Virus record (IMG/VR): IMGVR_UViG_3300034108_000432
Coordinates: 1 to 22,463 of that record
Length of the DNA: 22,463 nucleotides
Reading direction: 5' to 3' (one strand)
Origin: a virus
The position numbers were made by a program, and so were the translations under genes. The notes under the pieces are model-generated. The model worked only from the letters and a program-made list of their open reading frames with translations. It did no database searches and had not been told where the DNA came from. Below, one piece after another: positions 6,007 to 21,571 of the stretch (its first letter is position 1; every line of letters starts with the position of its first letter).

Positions 6007-6188
6007 TGGAGCAGCACGTAGATAGCACATCGGTAAAGGGGTTACTATTGACAATGGGTTTATGGATGTTAGCACACGTTACCGCCTCGCAGGTGGCTAC
6101 CTACTGCACTATACTATCGGCTATTGTTACTATAATCGTTAATATACAAAAATTCAAAAATGGCAAAGACAAGCATAGGACTGACTAA
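6006..6188 (+). CDS. Holin-like small membrane protein (first of two)
   Basis: 60 residues with two predicted membrane helices: about 11-27 (GLLLTMGLWMLAHVTA) and 31-48 (VATYCTILSAIVTIIVNI), followed by a basic tail (KFKNGKDKHRTD). The start overlaps the previous stop by one base, and the end overlaps the next membrane-protein gene by 29 bases. Size, two-helix topology, charged tail and position immediately before spanin and endolysin genes fit a phage holin, which forms the lesion that lets endolysin reach the cell wall. The family itself is not recognised from sequence, so holin is an inference from architecture and context. Confidence 0.6.
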   Translation: MEQHVDSTSVKGLLLTMGLWMLAHVTASQVATYCTILSAIVTIIVNIQKFKNGKDKHRTD

Positions 6189-6411
6189 CGTAAACTCACC
6201 CGCTCCGAAATGGTATCGCAAATCAAAGAGAATTATCGGGTTGCTATCCGGCCCTACCGTGTTGGCAGTATTTCAGATATTTAAACTAACTGACCACCAA
6301 ATGGCAAGCGTGGCAACGGTAATAGCTTTCCTTCCTACATTATTAGAGGTATTTTCCGCAATACTTGCAAACGGTGAACAATATGCAGCTATCGATGAAA
6401 AGTCCGAATAA
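6160..6411 (+). CDS. Second small membrane protein of the lysis cassette
   Basis: 83 residues. The N-terminal part is basic (APKWYRKSKRIIG) and is followed by two hydrophobic segments, about 25-42 (IIGLLSGPTVLAVFQIFK) and 48-70 (MASVATVIAFLPTLLEVFSAILA), with an acidic C-terminus (AIDEKSE). It overlaps the preceding holin-like gene by 29 bases and the following lipoprotein gene by about 17, so the four lysis genes are packed in different frames. It could be the true holin, an antiholin, or a second subunit. The two small membrane proteins are not alike in sequence, so this is not a simple dual-start pair. Confidence 0.6.
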   Translation: MAKTSIGLTNVNSPAPKWYRKSKRIIGLLSGPTVLAVFQIFKLTDHQMASVATVIAFLPTLLEVFSAILANGEQYAAIDEKSE

Positions 6412-6880
6412 TTCGGACAGTTGGGTAAAGTGGTGGTTACTTGCAATGGCTTTGCTATTCGTGCTGATTATGACATCATGCAATAGTGTAAAGAAATCGC
6501 AAACCACTACACAAGAACAAACGCTCACTATCTATGTACGTGATACGGTACACGTTAAAGTGATAGACACATCTCGCATCGTAACCGAATTACAGGAATT
6601 TAATACAAAGACTATTGAGTTATACGATACCGTGTATAAAGATGTGCCTGTACTTCGCCAACGGATAATATACGAGAACGTAAAGCAGCAACGCACCGAA
6701 TCACAGGCAGGTATCACAAAGGATAGTGTATCGGGCAGCGTGAGTAATACGCAGGCACTTAGCAAGGTAGAATCAACAAGCAGTAAGAAATCAAACAGAA
6801 TACCATTTATCGGAATTATAATCGGAGGCATTGTAATAATTATAATCTATGGCATACGTAAAACCTATAGTAAGCCTTAA
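6395..6880 (+). CDS. Candidate single-molecule spanin (lipoprotein with C-terminal membrane helix)
   Basis: With the ATG at 6395 the product has 161 residues; an ATG at 6383 and a TTG at 6365 are alternatives. I prefer 6395 because Lys2 and Lys12 then lead straight into a hydrophobic core and a lipobox-like LIMTSC, placing the lipid-bearing Cys at residue 29. The middle (30-130) is polar and helical, with no catalytic motif, suited to spanning the periplasm. The C-terminus has a strong membrane helix (IPFIGIIIGGIVIIIIYGI, about 136-154) and a basic end. Lipobox at one end and inner-membrane helix at the other is the layout of u-spanins such as T1 gp11, which disrupt the outer membrane at the end of lysis. 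It lies between holin-like genes and the endolysin. The -3 Met of the lipobox is not the textbook Leu but is tolerated in Bacteroidota-type lipoproteins. Confidence 0.65.
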   Translation: MKSPNNSDSWVKWWLLAMALLFVLIMTSCNSVKKSQTTTQEQTLTIYVRDTVHVKVIDTSRIVTELQEFNTKTIELYDTVYKDVPVLRQRIIYENVKQQRTESQAGITKDSVSGSVSNTQALSKVESTSSKKSNRIPFIGIIIGGIVIIIIYGIRKTYSKP

Positions 6881-7418
6881 CGAGTATAAGGCGATGTTTG
6901 ATTCGATGCAAGTCGATGAAGATAAAGCAGCCGAAATAGCTAAAGCCGTTGCACTAATCAACAAGGGTAAGCAGCGTTATTTATCCGTTACTGCTAAACT
7001 GAATCTCAAATGCCCGTGGTATGCACTGGGGATAGTTCACTACTTAGAAGGCAGTTGCAATTTCTCAAAGCACATTCACAATGGCGATCCGTTAACCGCT
7101 CGCACCTGGCAAGTACCTGCAGGCCGGCCATTACTACCGCCACAATTCGGTAAGTCCTACACTTGGGAGGAAAGCGCTGAAGATTGGTTTCGCTTAAAGA
7201 ATTGGCACAAATGGCAAGATTGGGGGGTGCAAGATATGTTGTATAGATTTGAGGCGAATAACGGATTCGGGTATCGCAAGCGGTCGGTTGCTACGCCTTA
7301 CCTATGGAGTTATAGCGACCATTACGACAAAGGCAAGTTTGTAGCGGATGGCAAATACAATCCCGATGCCGTGAGTAAGCAAGTCGGGGCGGCAATTTTG
7401 CTTAAGGAATTGATGTAA
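6849..7418 (+). CDS. Putative endolysin, lysozyme-like family
   Basis: 189 residues, overlapping the spanin candidate by 32 bases. Residues 57-94 carry a strongly patterned core: WYALGIVHYLEGS, then HIHNGDPLTARTWQVPAGRP, followed by a Trp-rich region (TWEESAEDWFRLKNWHKW) and NNGFGYR near residue 138. I know this combination (Ile-His-x-x-Glu, HNGDPLTxRT, VPxGRP, E.YNG.GYR) from phage and bacterial proteins annotated as lysozyme-family muramidases; Glu67 is the likely catalytic acid. There is no signal peptide, so export would depend on the holin-like proteins just upstream. The assignment to peptidoglycan hydrolysis is therefore based on motif memory plus lysis-cassette context; the exact bond cut is not established. 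Confidence 0.7.
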   Translation: MAYVKPIVSLNEYKAMFDSMQVDEDKAAEIAKAVALINKGKQRYLSVTAKLNLKCPWYALGIVHYLEGSCNFSKHIHNGDPLTARTWQVPAGRPLLPPQFGKSYTWEESAEDWFRLKNWHKWQDWGVQDMLYRFEANNGFGYRKRSVATPYLWSYSDHYDKGKFVADGKYNPDAVSKQVGAAILLKELM

Positions 7419-12019: not shown

Positions 12020-12115
12020 TTACTTATCCTTACTCCGGTGTTTATTCTCATACTCACCGATTCTGTATGCCATGATAAGGGTTCCGAAGAACATTGCTGC
12101 AATAATGTAAATCAT
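12020..12115 (-). CDS. 31-residue membrane peptide coupled to the DnaA-like gene
   Basis: On the minus strand the DnaA-like gene ends in TTATGA, and the ATG of this frame overlaps its TGA by four bases, the typical arrangement of coupled translation. The product starts MIYIIAAMFFGTLIMAY, one clear membrane helix, and ends with a charged tail (RIGEYENKHRSKDK). It is short enough to be missed by gene finders. The ATGA overlap and clean membrane topology support a real gene; the role is unknown. It faces the late operon tail-to-tail, with about 74 bases between the two stops. Confidence 0.55.
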   Translation of the reverse strand: MIYIIAAMFFGTLIMAYRIGEYENKHRSKDK

Positions 12116-12546
12116 AATATTACGTTAAGGTTTTCAATATGTGTTTTGTACTCGTTATCAAACTTTGAGGTTAGGCTATCGTTAACCGACTTCTTAGCGT
12201 GTATAACCGTTGTATGATCACGGCTGCCGAATATACCGCCCACCTCTGATAAGGTAATCTCCGTTTGATTGAGCAAATACCACATGGTTATGTGGCGGGC
12301 TACTACGATATTTCTCATCCGGCTTTTGGATTGCATATTTTCAAATGGTATGCGGAAATAATTACTGCAAGTCTTAATTATATTATCTATTTGCAGTTTT
12401 GAGTTCAATACGATAGGTACATTCACTTTCCCTTTCATACCGGGGAGCGCAAAGTAGCTTATCCTTTGTTTTGGTGTAGTTGGCAAGTAGAGTGTAATAA
12501 AGGGGGATGCGTTTAAGCGTTCTGTTTTGAGTTTTTTGGTTAGCAT
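12112..12546 (-). CDS. Stand-alone DnaA domain IV-like DNA-binding protein
   Basis: 144 residues. Residues about 53-125 match the DNA-binding domain IV of the replication initiator DnaA: IDNIIKTCSNYFRI, then SKSRMRNIVVARHITMWYL and the signature GSRDHTTVIHA at 107-117 (DnaA consensus GGRDHTTVIHA). The AAA+ ATPase and the N-terminal DnaB-loading domains are absent; the first 50 residues are unrelated and basic. DnaA domain IV recognises DnaA boxes, so this protein could compete with or mimic host DnaA, act at the phage origin, or serve as a repressor. It is leftward, downstream of a strong terminator at 12573-12601, so it may depend on readthrough or an unseen promoter. Domain call is strong; function is inference. 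Confidence 0.85.
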   Translation of the reverse strand: MLTKKLKTERLNASPFITLYLPTTPKQRISYFALPGMKGKVNVPIVLNSKLQIDNIIKTCSNYFRIPFENMQSKSRMRNIVVARHITMWYLLNQTEITLSEVGGIFGSRDHTTVIHAKKSVNDSLTSKFDNEYKTHIENLNVIL

Positions 12547-14971: not shown

Positions 14972-15063
14972 GTCATGTTAGCGTAATCGGGAATGAATAC
15001 CGACTTGGGATAACGCCTTCGCATTGTAGCGGAGAGATACGGGTTCGAGTCCCGTACATGGCT
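14972..15063 (+). tRNA. tRNA-like element with an 18-base D-loop insertion (possible tRNA relic)
   Basis: Acceptor strands GTCATGT (14972-14978) and ACATGGC (15056-15062) pair in full (one G-U); the T arm ACGGG-TTCGAGT-CCCGT (15039-15055) is canonical and joins directly. D stem GCGT (14981-14984) pairs with ACGC (15013-15016). Removing 18 bases from the loop leaves AATCGGGATA, a textbook D loop with A14, GG and A21, and a total of 74 bases. The anticodon stem is TTCGC/GCGGA with a 6-base loop ATTGTA (normal is 7), so the isotype cannot be read with confidence; UGU is one option. No CCA is encoded. It is either a degenerate tRNA, a tRNA with an unusual processed insertion, or a tRNA mimic. Confidence 0.5.
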
Positions 15064-15068
15064 CTAAA

Positions 15069-17176: not shown

Positions 17177-17267
17177 TCATATGCGAAGTTGCAGCCGAAT
17201 ATGAGTTTTTTTATTTAGTTGTTACTAAATATGCCCCTTACGCTGCAACCGTTTGGGGCATTCTTTT
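17177..17267 (+). promoter_or_regulatory. Structured RNA leader: three tandem hairpins before the helicase gene
   Basis: Hairpin 1: TCATAT/ATATGA plus an inner CG/CG (17177-17204), followed by seven T. Hairpin 2: TATTTAGT/ACTAAATA with a 4-base loop (17212-17231). Hairpin 3: ATGCCCC/GGGGCAT (17231-17261), followed by TCTTTTTT that runs into the helicase ATG at 17270. The loop of hairpin 1 contains GTTGCAGC (17188-17195) and the loop of hairpin 3 contains its exact complement GCTGCAAC (17242-17249). Hairpins 1 and 3 look like intrinsic terminators; loop-to-loop pairing could switch between states. This could end the methylase transcript or regulate helicase expression. Confidence 0.55.
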
Positions 17268-17269
17268 TT

Positions 17270-18766
17270 ATGGAACTAAGAGATTACCAAATTAAATTAA
17301 CGGATGACATTGTCCGTAAATTAGCAAAAAGAAAAGTTATTGCACAATTAGCTACCGGAGGTGGTAAGACAGTATGCTTTTCCTCAATCACAAAAAGATA
17401 TATTGACAAGCACGAAAAGTCAGTATTGATACTTGTTCACCGAAAAGAACTATTGCAGCAAACACGCAGATCACTTCACAATGCTTTTAATTTAGATTGT
17501 CAGATTATAATTGCTGGGATGAAAACAATCCCTTACAATAGGATTTATGTAGGGATGGTTGAAACCGTAAAACGTAGAATAGACCAACTCCACAACATTG
17601 GGATGATTATAATTGATGAAGCACATATTGCTAATTTTAATTTAATACATGACCACTTTCCCGAAAGTTATTTCATTGGGTTTACTGCTACCCCACTTGC
17701 AGCCGCAAAAGATAAGCCACTAAAAAATTACTATAACGATATTGTATGTGGGGTAGATATTTCTCATTTAATTGATATAGGTTCGCTTTGTGCCAATGAA
17801 ACCTATGCCGCAAAAGATGCCGTGAATAGAAAAGATTTATCAATCAAAGCAGGTGAATTTGATAATAGTTTAATGGGGCTTGAATTTTCGCAGCCACATC
17901 ACGTTAACAATGTTGTAACCATTTACAAGCAAAAAGCAGAAGGAACAAAGGCTATAGTGTTTAACGTAAACATTGAGCATTCATTAAAGGTTACAGACGC
18001 TTTTGTTCAAGCAGGTTATAATTGCCGCCACTTTGATGGAGAAACAGACACTAACGAAAGAACAGAGGTTTTATCATGGTTTGAAAATACTCCAGGTGCA
18101 ATACTTTGTAACGTAGGAATAGCCACAACAGGTTTTGATGAGCCAACTATTGAAACCGTTATTGTAAACCGCTCAACCATGTCTATGCCGTTATGGTTAC
18201 AAATGACTGGCAGAGGCTCCAGACCTACAGAATTTAAGAAAACTTTTGCAATTATAGACATGGGAGGTAATGCTATTACTCATGGAGATTGGTGCGACAA
18301 GCATAATTGGGAGTATCTTTTTTGGAATCCACCGAAAAAAGGTGAGGGGGTTGCACCTGTAAAGGAATGTCCTAAATGTATGCGGGTTATACACATTAAG
18401 GTTATGAAATGCCCTGAATGCGGACATGAATTTCCTCTACCCAAACCAAAGATAGAAGAAGAATTGAGCGAATTTGTGTTAGTAACTAAAAATACAAATG
18501 TTTTAGAGATAATTTATGATAACAGATTTAAACAAGAATATCGTGCTTTTTTTATACTTGCTGAAGCATTTGCAAGAGAATTAAAGTACACCAACAAAGA
18601 ATTAAATCAGGAAAAGTTTATTTTTACACTCCGCCTTTTACAAGATAAACACAGAGAGTGGTGCCGGGCAAAAGGCAAAAAGTACGATCAATGGCACCAG
18701 AATTTAACAAGAACAAAATTTATTGAAGAACTCCAAAAACACTATAAAAAATGGCAACCTCTGTAA
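17270..18766 (+). CDS. Superfamily 2 DNA helicase (DEAH type) with zinc ribbon
   Basis: 498 residues from ATG 17270; an in-frame ATG at 17219 lies within the hairpin leader and is rejected as start. MELRDYQIKLTDDI is the usual Q-motif-like opening. Motif I is ATGGGKT (about 29-35), II is IDEAH (about 113-117), III is FTATP (about 137-141), V is GIATTGFDEP and VI is QMTGRGSRP (about 311-319). A Cys4 zinc ribbon follows (CPKC and CPEC, about 367-385), then a helical C-terminal domain with REWCRAKGKKYDQWHQNLTR. It should unwind DNA with ATP at the phage replication fork or during recombination. It overlaps the primase-helicase gene by 16 bases. The gene is AT-rich relative to the methylase region. 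Confidence 0.88.
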   Translation: MELRDYQIKLTDDIVRKLAKRKVIAQLATGGGKTVCFSSITKRYIDKHEKSVLILVHRKELLQQTRRSLHNAFNLDCQIIIAGMKTIPYNRIYVGMVETVKRRIDQLHNIGMIIIDEAHIANFNLIHDHFPESYFIGFTATPLAAAKDKPLKNYYNDIVCGVDISHLIDIGSLCANETYAAKDAVNRKDLSIKAGEFDNSLMGLEFSQPHHVNNVVTIYKQKAEGTKAIVFNVNIEHSLKVTDAFVQAGYNCRHFDGETDTNERTEVLSWFENTPGAILCNVGIATTGFDEPTIETVIVNRSTMSMPLWLQMTGRGSRPTEFKKTFAIIDMGGNAITHGDWCDKHNWEYLFWNPPKKGEGVAPVKECPKCMRVIHIKVMKCPECGHEFPLPKPKIEEELSEFVLVTKNTNVLEIIYDNRFKQEYRAFFILAEAFARELKYTNKELNQEKFIFTLRLLQDKHREWCRAKGKKYDQWHQNLTRTKFIEELQKHYKKWQPL

Positions 18767-20919
18767 TAAGCATTTATAACAACATCCGGCAAACAGTATC
18801 AAAAGAAACTATTGATATTGAAAGGTTTATCAATGATATTCGTTTCGGTAAGTGGGAGGATATAGTCAACCCAATACGTATTTTAAAGGATTACGAAGAA
18901 CGTAAAAAAGCAAAATTACAAGTTCCCTATGTTACACTATCAGGGTACTTTTCATCTGAAAGGAACGCAAAAAGTATTACCAACCATAGTGGATTTATCG
19001 GCATTGACATTGATAATATCAGTAATGAACTGAATGGGATAAAGTCTTTACTTTCTACTGATCCCTATGTTTACGGTTGCTTTATGTCTATTAGTGGTAC
19101 TGGGCTTTGTGTATTATTTAAAATAGATGGTGAGAGGCATTTGGATGCGTTTAACTCTATAGCAGATTATCTCATAAAAAAGTATCAGATAGTAATTGAC
19201 CCAAGCGGTAAGGATGTTTGCAGACCTCGTTTTATATCGTATGATCCAGAAGCATATCTAAACACAGATGCAATAGTATTTAAAAAGTATTTGCCAAAGG
19301 AGAAAAAACGTAAAATACAAAGCACAATATTTGTAAAGTCAGAATTTGATGATGTAGTAAAAAAAATGGTTGATGCAAATGTATCATGCGTTGAAGATTA
19401 CCGAGATTGGCTGGCAGTTGGTTTTGGATTAGCTGATTATTTTGGGGAAGCCGGCAGAGAGTATTTTCATTTACTTTCATCCTGTAGTGGCAAATATGAG
19501 CGTTCAATGTGTGATAGGCAGTTTACGCATTGTTTAAGGCAACCTCAAAGCACAGGGAAAATAACTATTGCAACTATTTATTACTTTGCTAAACAAGCCG
19601 GGATAAACATATTCAGCGAAAAGACTAAACGCATAGCAGCAGTTACTTCTTCGCAAAAAAAGGCAGGACTATCCGCTAATCAAATTGCAGAGAATTTAGA
19701 AAAGTTTGAGGGCATAAAAAAGCAAGAAGCAGAAGCAATAATTAAACAGGCCTTTCAGTCAAATTCCGATTTTGCCACTAACACATCATTAGTAGAAAAT
19801 ATACGTTCTCATTTAAAACATACGTATAATTTAAAATTTAATACCATTTCACGCAGAATTGAACTGAATGGTAAGGATTTAGATGATAAAGTTATCAACA
19901 CTTTGTTCCTTGATGCAAAGGTTATTTTTGATGATTTAACATTTGATATGTTTTATCGGGTGCTAACAAGTAATAATACAGAATCCTACAATCCTATTTT
20001 ATCATGGTTTGAGGAAAATAAAGACTTGCCATGTAGCGGAACTATTGATGAATTTTTCCAATGCTTTGACACCGATGATGATTTACTTTACTTTGGTAAA
20101 AAATGGCTTGTTTCTGTAGTTAGTAGTGCAATGGGTATTCACTCGCCATTGGTGCTTATTTACGTATCTGAAAAGCAAGGAACAGGAAAGACAGAAGCAT
20201 TCCGTAGAATGATGCCAAAGGGCTTAAAAAGCTATTATGGGGAGAGTAAGTTAGATGCTGGCAAAGATGATGAAATATTAATGACACAAAAGTTAATAAT
20301 CCTGGATGATGAGATGGCCGGCAAAAACAAAAAAGAAGCAGACCATATTAAAGGATTAACAAGTAAGCAAACATTTTCCCTTCGAGAGCCGTATGGCAGA
20401 ACAAACGTAGATTTAAACAGGTTAGCGGTTCTATGTGGAACTACCAACTCAAAAGCTATATTAAACGATCCTACTGGAAACAGGCGATTTATACCGATAG
20501 AAATTAGAAGCATTGACTTTGACAGGTATAATGCAATAAATAAGGATAAGCTATTTGCAGAGGCATACAACCTTTACACCCAGGGGTTTGAATGGCAGCT
20601 ATCTGCTGAAGATATAGATAGGCTAAATAGCAAGGCCGATAAGTTTCAAGACCTATCAATGGAGTATGAACTTATTAACAAGTTTTTCACATTACCATTA
20701 AGCGGAGGAGGTATCTACATGACCGCTACTGAAATGAAGGTATCTCTGGAGAATCAAAGCGGACTCAAAAACATATCATTGAGGAAAATAGGCATGGAAC
20801 TAAAAAGGATAGGCTTTAATTGTTTGTTAAAAAGAGTTAACAATAAGGTTATGCAGGTGTACGAAGTAGAGAAAAATGAGTCGCAAATCAGTAATTTTAC
20901 CGAGCCTAACCCATTTTAG
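18751..20919 (+). CDS. Primase-helicase (BT4734/VirE-type primase plus VirE-type ATPase)
   Basis: 722 residues. Residues about 55-170 resemble the BT4734-like/VirE N-terminal primase domain: TLSGYFSSERNAKSITNHSG, GIDIDN (acidic pair near 84-88), SISGTGLCVLFKI and DPSGKDVCRPRFISYDP. Residues about 205-290 look like a PriCT-2 module (DYRDWLAVGFGLADYFG, CDRQFTHCL). The C-terminal half is a VirE-family AAA+/SF3-like ATPase: Walker A EKQGTGKTE (about 473-481), Walker B LIILDDEMAG, and GTTNSKAILNDPTGNRRF with Asn sensor and Arg finger candidates. Together it can prime and unwind DNA, the usual replicative core of Bacteroidota phages. It overlaps the helicase gene by 16 bases, and its stop directly abuts the iteron array that is the likely origin. 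Confidence 0.85.
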   Translation: MATSVISIYNNIRQTVSKETIDIERFINDIRFGKWEDIVNPIRILKDYEERKKAKLQVPYVTLSGYFSSERNAKSITNHSGFIGIDIDNISNELNGIKSLLSTDPYVYGCFMSISGTGLCVLFKIDGERHLDAFNSIADYLIKKYQIVIDPSGKDVCRPRFISYDPEAYLNTDAIVFKKYLPKEKKRKIQSTIFVKSEFDDVVKKMVDANVSCVEDYRDWLAVGFGLADYFGEAGREYFHLLSSCSGKYERSMCDRQFTHCLRQPQSTGKITIATIYYFAKQAGINIFSEKTKRIAAVTSSQKKAGLSANQIAENLEKFEGIKKQEAEAIIKQAFQSNSDFATNTSLVENIRSHLKHTYNLKFNTISRRIELNGKDLDDKVINTLFLDAKVIFDDLTFDMFYRVLTSNNTESYNPILSWFEENKDLPCSGTIDEFFQCFDTDDDLLYFGKKWLVSVVSSAMGIHSPLVLIYVSEKQGTGKTEAFRRMMPKGLKSYYGESKLDAGKDDEILMTQKLIILDDEMAGKNKKEADHIKGLTSKQTFSLREPYGRTNVDLNRLAVLCGTTNSKAILNDPTGNRRFIPIEIRSIDFDRYNAINKDKLFAEAYNLYTQGFEWQLSAEDIDRLNSKADKFQDLSMEYELINKFFTLPLSGGGIYMTATEMKVSLENQSGLKNISLRKIGMELKRIGFNCLLKRVNNKVMQVYEVEKNESQISNFTEPNPF

Positions 20920-20920
20920 C

Positions 20921-21207
20921 GTAAAGGATGTAAAGGATTGTAAAGGATAAAAATTTTTATCCTTTACACTTGAAACCCTTACTACCATTGATTCTTATAA
21001 GTTTGTAAAGGATGTAAAGGATAAATCTATAGAAAGTTAATAGAATAATATACACACACATCACACACACACACACATTATTATATTCTATTCCTATAAG
21101 AAAAAACGCATTTTTTCCTTTACATCCTTTACAGATTGCTGAAAGTCAATAGCAGTAAGGGTTTTAGGCGTAAAGGATAAATTTAATTAACCTTTACAGT
21201 AAAGGAT
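20921..21207. repeat. GTAAAGGAT iteron array with dyad symmetry, candidate replication origin
   Basis: Nine exact copies of GTAAAGGAT or its complement: forward at 20921, 20930, 20940, 21005, 21014, 21170 and 21199; inverted at 20959 and 21124. Two near copies are inverted at 21115 and 21189. The layout is symmetric about 21068.5: the 28-base palindrome at 20940-20967 mirrors a 28-base imperfect palindrome at 21170-21197, an 18-base arm starting AACCCTTACT (20974-20991) mirrors 21146-21163 with 16 matches, and the iteron pair 21005-21022 mirrors 21115-21132. The centre is an AT-rich stretch with ATAGAAT/ATTCTAT around a (CA)n run. Iterons, an AT-rich unwinding-like centre and the adjacent primase gene suggest an origin of replication. 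No protein-coding frame is present in this 292-base gap. Confidence 0.65.
20940..20967. repeat. Perfect 28-base palindrome within the iteron array
   Basis: Arms GTAAAGGATAAAAA and TTTTTATCCTTTAC meet with no spacer, joining a forward and an inverted iteron. As RNA it could fold into a 12-13-pair hairpin just after the primase stop, so it might also stop transcription, but no U-tract follows the stem. It has a same-length partner at 21170-21197. Confidence 0.85.
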
Positions 21208-21211
21208 AAAT

Positions 21212-21571
21212 ATGACAAAAGAGCAATTTTTAGCAAGTAATTACAAAAATGAGGATCAATTTCAAGCATTGGTGTATACTTTTATCAACCATAACTACCC
21301 CATATTAAGAAAATTTATATTCCATGTGCCTAATGGCGGTAATAGGTCTGCCCGTGAAGGAATGAAATTGAAGTCTATGGGAGTTTTGCCGGGATGCCCT
21401 GACTTGGTTTGCGTAAAGCCATTATTCGCATTGGAACTAAAAATGCCTAATGGAGTACAATCACCGGCACAAAAGCAAATACAAGAACTTTGGGGAAGTA
21501 TGTACTATATTGCATACTCGGCAAAAGAGGTGATTGATATAATTGATAAAGTAAGTAAAACAACAAATTAA
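21212..21571 (+). CDS. VRR-NUC domain nuclease
   Basis: 119 residues. The VRR-NUC (PD-(D/E)xK) pattern is clear: FHVPNGGNRSAREGMKLKSMG, then GCPDLV with Asp64, LELK with Glu75 and Lys77, and SPAQKQIQELW with a supporting Gln near 87. The helix at the start (DQFQALVYTFINHNYP) is the usual first helix. Stand-alone phage VRR-NUC proteins cut branched or Holliday-junction DNA, so it may resolve replication or recombination intermediates before packaging. The ATG lies 4 bases after the last iteron of the candidate origin; any origin activity could also regulate it. It is the last gene before a strong terminator. Confidence 0.85.
   Translation: MTKEQFLASNYKNEDQFQALVYTFINHNYPILRKFIFHVPNGGNRSAREGMKLKSMGVLPGCPDLVCVKPLFALELKMPNGVQSPAQKQIQELWGSMYYIAYSAKEVIDIIDKVSKTTN

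Follow-up and report, generated by a model that had tools for sequence, protein, structure and literature searches.

The window analysed here, a 22.5-kb IMG/VR contig, carries genes for tail proteins, a RecT-like protein, a methyltransferase, an SF2 helicase and a primase-helicase, followed by an iteron array and a nuclease-like gene. Its virion genes encode a tail tape measure, a major tail and a tail spike-like protein, and Bacteroidota genomes as well as phages of Bacteroidota contain relatives of the primase-helicase. The primase-helicase gene (18751..20919, + strand), whose product we propose as the initiator, combines a BT4734-like N-terminal domain, PriCT_2 and a VapE-like SF3 helicase (Pfam and PHROGs; fold match 7pds). 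Its upstream neighbour is the SF2 helicase gene (17219..18766, +; phrog_16 by Pfam/PHROGs) and its downstream neighbour the nuclease-like gene (21212..21571, +; phrog_824), in the place of which Flavobacterium phage mumin9-1 has a VRR-NUC gene. An Rfam scan of the window returned a tRNA as its single match, and a tRNA-Lys (CTT) gene lies at 14972-15064 (+), just ahead of an HNH endonuclease gene.

Between the primase-helicase and nuclease genes, at 20921-21207, the 9-mer GTAAAGGAT is found in nine exact and two one-mismatch copies. This had been claimed in the preliminary description and is confirmed by counting and by shuffles, as the whole window holds 26 matches at no more than one mismatch against 6.4 expected and a shuffle maximum of 14. 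The array is also mirrored about position 21068.5, where 79 of 130 positions are complementary (the runner-up centre in the whole window reaches 57), and the arms at 20939-21025 and 21112-21198 are 79% complementary. Each side of the mirror has an outer palindrome and an inner tandem pair, and between them an arm that bears a second motif. On the left, the palindrome is made of two exact iterons, its left half at 20940..20948 (+) and its right half at 20959..20967 (-), and the inner pair of two more at 21005..21013 and 21014..21022 (both +). On the right, the inner pair joins the near copy GTAAAGGAA (21115..21123, -) to an exact copy (21124..21132, -), and the outer palindrome joins an exact copy (21170..21178, +) to the near copy GTAAAGGTT (21189..21197, -). 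The mirror proposed earlier thus holds in position and orientation for these eight of the eleven iterons and fails for the outermost ones: the exact copies at 20930..20938 and 21199..21207 (both +) mirror each other by position and not by strand, and the exact first copy (20921..20929, +) is without a partner. The first iteron begins at 20921, the primase-helicase stop codon ending at 20919, and the last is followed four bases on by the nuclease start codon.

The AT-rich centre with a (CA)n tract that had been described before is indeed present between the inner pairs (21023..21114), where the tract is accompanied by an AT-rich inverted repeat (21039-21052 / 21079-21092). When all 22404 60-mers of the window are ranked by nearest-neighbour stability, the least stable one falls inside the array at 20993-21052, and we regard it as a candidate unwinding element. 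The AACCCTTACT arms (20974-20983 and 21154-21163) are part of a longer motif, CCCTTRCTRNNATTG, of which the window has two copies where 0.11 are expected, a left copy at 20976..20990 (+) that contains the AACCCTTACT arm and a right copy at 21147..21161 (-). We considered the arms as degenerate iterons and rejected this, because CCCTTRCTRNNATTG recurs in families that use other words. With up to one mismatch allowed, 7 of 57 representative loci contain the motif, compared with an expectation of 0.2, and some of these loci belong to families with quite different iterons.

To see how far the array extends among relatives, we collected 182 distinct loci with a relative of the primase-helicase and called arrays by a simple repeat score directly 3′ of the primase gene, with cut-offs of 16 and 20; word calls rest on one 9-mer and miss degenerate arrays. 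At a score of at least 16, an array directly follows the primase in 130 of the 182 loci versus 8 of 182 Markov shuffles, and in control regions in 3 of 180 upstream and 3 of 161 downstream. At 20 or above there are 100 such loci, against none in shuffles, none in the upstream control and one in the downstream control. By the same repeat score 52 of the 182 relatives, the cultured phages phi46:1 and P12024L among them, have no array; the relatives that do have one include a Chitinophaga prophage-like locus, L094. The preliminary description had held that relatives keeping the flanking genes without the array would speak against an origin; the five relatives of about 90% identity that we examined all carry nine exact copies.

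The word varies between lineages, and the geometry is common to them. Across differing words, a template of the geometry matches at p<0.01 for 20 lineages out of 53, and a stricter test for the double pair retains 29 loci with 15 words, some of which are shifted or related versions of others. In these loci the centre gap has a median of 102, the pairs are spaced by 8-10 bp, the arms measure 45-47 bp and the outer spacing is about 20-21. The layout of the window recurs at locus L154 with TGTGCCAAC as the word. Some relatives have outermost sites that extend into the end of the primase-helicase gene. In L154 the right half-origin module, a pair plus an inverted site, is also repeated with an 86-bp period from about +204 to +471 downstream of the primase, and this repeated module is an amplified origin half. 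The gene that follows the array changes as well, being an SF2 helicase in the L063 group according to alignment with the helicase coding sequence. In mumin9-1 (L014), a GIY-YIG-type nuclease gene at 6157-7065 (PF10544 in the note of the record) lies between the primase and a AGGTAACC array that stands ahead of the VRR-NUC gene. Repeats are present directly after the primase in this phage too, as if the nuclease gene had been inserted into the origin.

The initiator itself was modelled with AlphaFold2 from a 48-row alignment, reaching a pLDDT of 85 (34 from the single sequence). The model predicts a winged helix within the C-terminal domain, which spans about residues 630-722, with its recognition helix at residues 677-687 (codons at 20779..20811, +) and a beta wing at residues 691-708. 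Its best PDB match is 7pds, ‘PriRep1 with dsDNA’, over 448 columns, followed by other viral and phage primase-helicases, and the 7pds chain was likewise the sole convincing match of the sequence search. We take PriRep1 to come from a SaPI.

A link between this domain and the iterons emerges from closely related loci. For pairs with a core divergence below 6%, which are not independent and represent about four separate switches, we compared the helicase core with a wing stretch of residues 689-704 (codons at 20815..20862, +), the 16 residues past the presumed recognition helix, which was fixed after three switch cases. In the 71 pairs with different words, 16.3% of the wing versus 3.6% of the core is substituted and the wing is never unchanged. 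In the 177 pairs sharing a word, the figures are 1.3% versus 2.9%, with an unchanged wing in 146. Those ‘different’ pairs that set L062/L069 against L070/L074 still have part of their repeats in common. The cleanly separate switches are L050/L130, L063/L068, L070/L075 and L216/L221, with Poisson probabilities at the core rate of 0.046, 0.010, 0.010 and 0.013, respectively, and the last of them was found after the wing had been fixed and fits. The L221 array, with four copies of GGAACAGA and two remaining copies of GTAACAGA, is apparently caught mid-switch; three of its wing residues have changed, and L216, L217, L218 and L272 have kept GTAACAGA along with the wing residues altered in L221. Loci of the CTGACCACC cluster that carry Q690E alone retain the word, so that among the wing changes it is K693R that goes with the switch. 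DNA alignments reveal that spacers are largely retained where iterons change; at L070/L075 the spacers differ too, and import of a linked segment is therefore possible there. Since the word covaries with so small a patch of the initiator, the comparison of sequences points to this wing patch as the reader of the word.

A packaging (pac/cos) or site-specific recombination site may also be marked by repeat arrays and dyads, yet this array adjoins the primase-helicase rather than a terminase or an integrase and its word tracks the primase-helicase, which leaves such a site with hardly any credibility. The array might also be a regulatory operator, through which the primase-helicase or another protein represses or times transcription of the nuclease and downstream genes, the wing covariation then reflecting operator binding. 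The last iteron ends only four bases ahead of the nuclease start codon, covariation as such shows joint evolution of wing and word and nothing more, and initiators often autoregulate as well. Even so, we consider an operator very unlikely, given that the array stays while the downstream gene varies (the SF2 helicase of the L063 group, the GIY-YIG-type nuclease of mumin9-1), that an operator has no need of a long mirror geometry with an unstable centre, and that neither promoter-like nor terminator-like sites are enriched.

An origin could instead be read mainly by another protein, such as a DnaA-C-like protein or a host factor, and the primase-helicase would then be loaded in a second step. 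The DnaA-like ORF mentioned in the preliminary description does exist at 12112-12543 (minus strand) and matches PF08299 at 1e-21, so the phage encodes a protein with a DnaA C-terminal domain, and the iteron includes TTATCC, which resembles a DnaA box. Against this, the window holds a single match to the DnaA box TTATNCACA where 1.9 are expected, with none inside the array, as would not be typical of an oriC-type origin; the likeness to a DnaA box is lost in the words of relatives, and changes of the word go together with changes in the primase-helicase wing. We therefore think it extremely unlikely that another protein is the main reader. The product of 12112-12543 is small and has the DnaA C-terminal DNA-binding domain without the rest of DnaA, and phi46:1 also has a putative DnaA-like gene.

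Taking the sequence comparisons, the structural model and known analogues together, we conclude that the array very probably serves a tailed phage of Bacteroidota as its origin of replication, with the phage's own primase-helicase as the protein that recognises it. The origin reading of the preliminary description is thereby supported, both by the array being in place in most relatives and by the covariation of its word with the predicted DNA-binding wing. The layout, whose repeat and symmetry had not been recognised at that time, turns out to follow the published organisation of PICI/SaPI origins, in which the initiator gene is followed by two opposed iteron sets around an unstable AT-rich centre (PMC6092414). 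In both cases the iterons lie directly 3′ of the initiator gene, here as in the relatives, and the mirrored sets and the least stable 60-mer of our window correspond to the opposed sets and the unstable centre. A helicase, in which a primase is often included by fusion, serves as the PICI/SaPI initiator, and its C-terminal domain recognises the iterons in characterised cases (PMC6092414; PMC7581432), as with SaPI Rep and Cch2, which recognise iterons downstream of their genes (PMC7581432). A comparable Rep/Pri-Rep helicase with a C-terminal DNA-binding domain is predicted here from the VapE-like helicase, the winged-helix model and the 7pds fold. By its anatomy, then, the element would work like a PICI origin, but it resides in a contig that belongs to a Bacteroidota tailed phage and carries structural genes, and not in a satellite. 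It further differs from PICI/SaPI origins in its 9-bp words, which are unlike published ones, in a more elaborate fixed geometry with outer palindrome, arm and inner pair on each side, and in the second motif conserved in some lineages.

Other known systems share parts of this arrangement. SCCmec Cch2 is likewise a helicase of the D5/SF3 type and uses its C-terminal domain to bind short repeats downstream of the operon that encodes it, however its putative origin has only three AAGTG iterons and a separate primase-polymerase, and no mirror-symmetric pair of sets is reported (PMC7581432). In PLE, a system that is paired with the nuclease Odn, the DNA-binding domain of the RepA_N initiator covaries with the origin repeats and replication takes place in cognate pairs only, showing cognate specificity; that initiator family is unrelated, it swaps whole domains instead of a few wing residues, and its origin has three semi-palindromic iterons of about 30 bp (PMC8263062). 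The array is not of the lambda type, being intergenic and 3′ of the initiator gene, nor of the RepA/RepE iteron-plasmid type, as the adjacent initiator is a primase-helicase and no plasmid Rep match was found among the window proteins scanned.

From the symmetry and the known analogues, a two-ring, bidirectional mechanism can be proposed. The C-terminal winged helix would bind one 9-mer per initiator subunit, and each mirrored set of five to six iterons would nucleate one SF3 helicase ring. The two rings would face each other, melt the unstable centre and depart in opposite directions, while the N-terminal primase would lay primers as they leave. GC skew, one of the checks named in the preliminary description, gives no guidance on this reading, as it has no sign change in the window. 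Among related genomes it flips near the array in G001, where AT skew flips as well, as expected if coding orientation changes, and in G003 and G005 no GC-skew flip was found.

It is about equally easy to believe and to doubt a more general proposal for Bacteroidota phages, in which the origin layout stays fixed and the word keeps switching in place, with most copies changing together and two to four wing substitutions to match. There would then be a readable wing-to-word code, for example with Lys at residue 693 for GGTGGTCAG and Arg there for GGTGTACAG. Origin-targeting parasites or incompatibility might drive the switching.

Phage satellites have been described as the sole carriers of this layout, which the present loci extend to Bacteroidota tailed phages and prophages; these tailed-phage origins may show where satellites obtained it. 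Our comparison was drawn from open-licence papers, and origins of this type may already have been described for phages of Bacteroidota. The many words set in one geometry, along with near-identical initiators that use different words, form a natural library for asking how origins are read by a hexameric initiator and why they diversify, and a few residues and a 9-mer are enough to test each switch.
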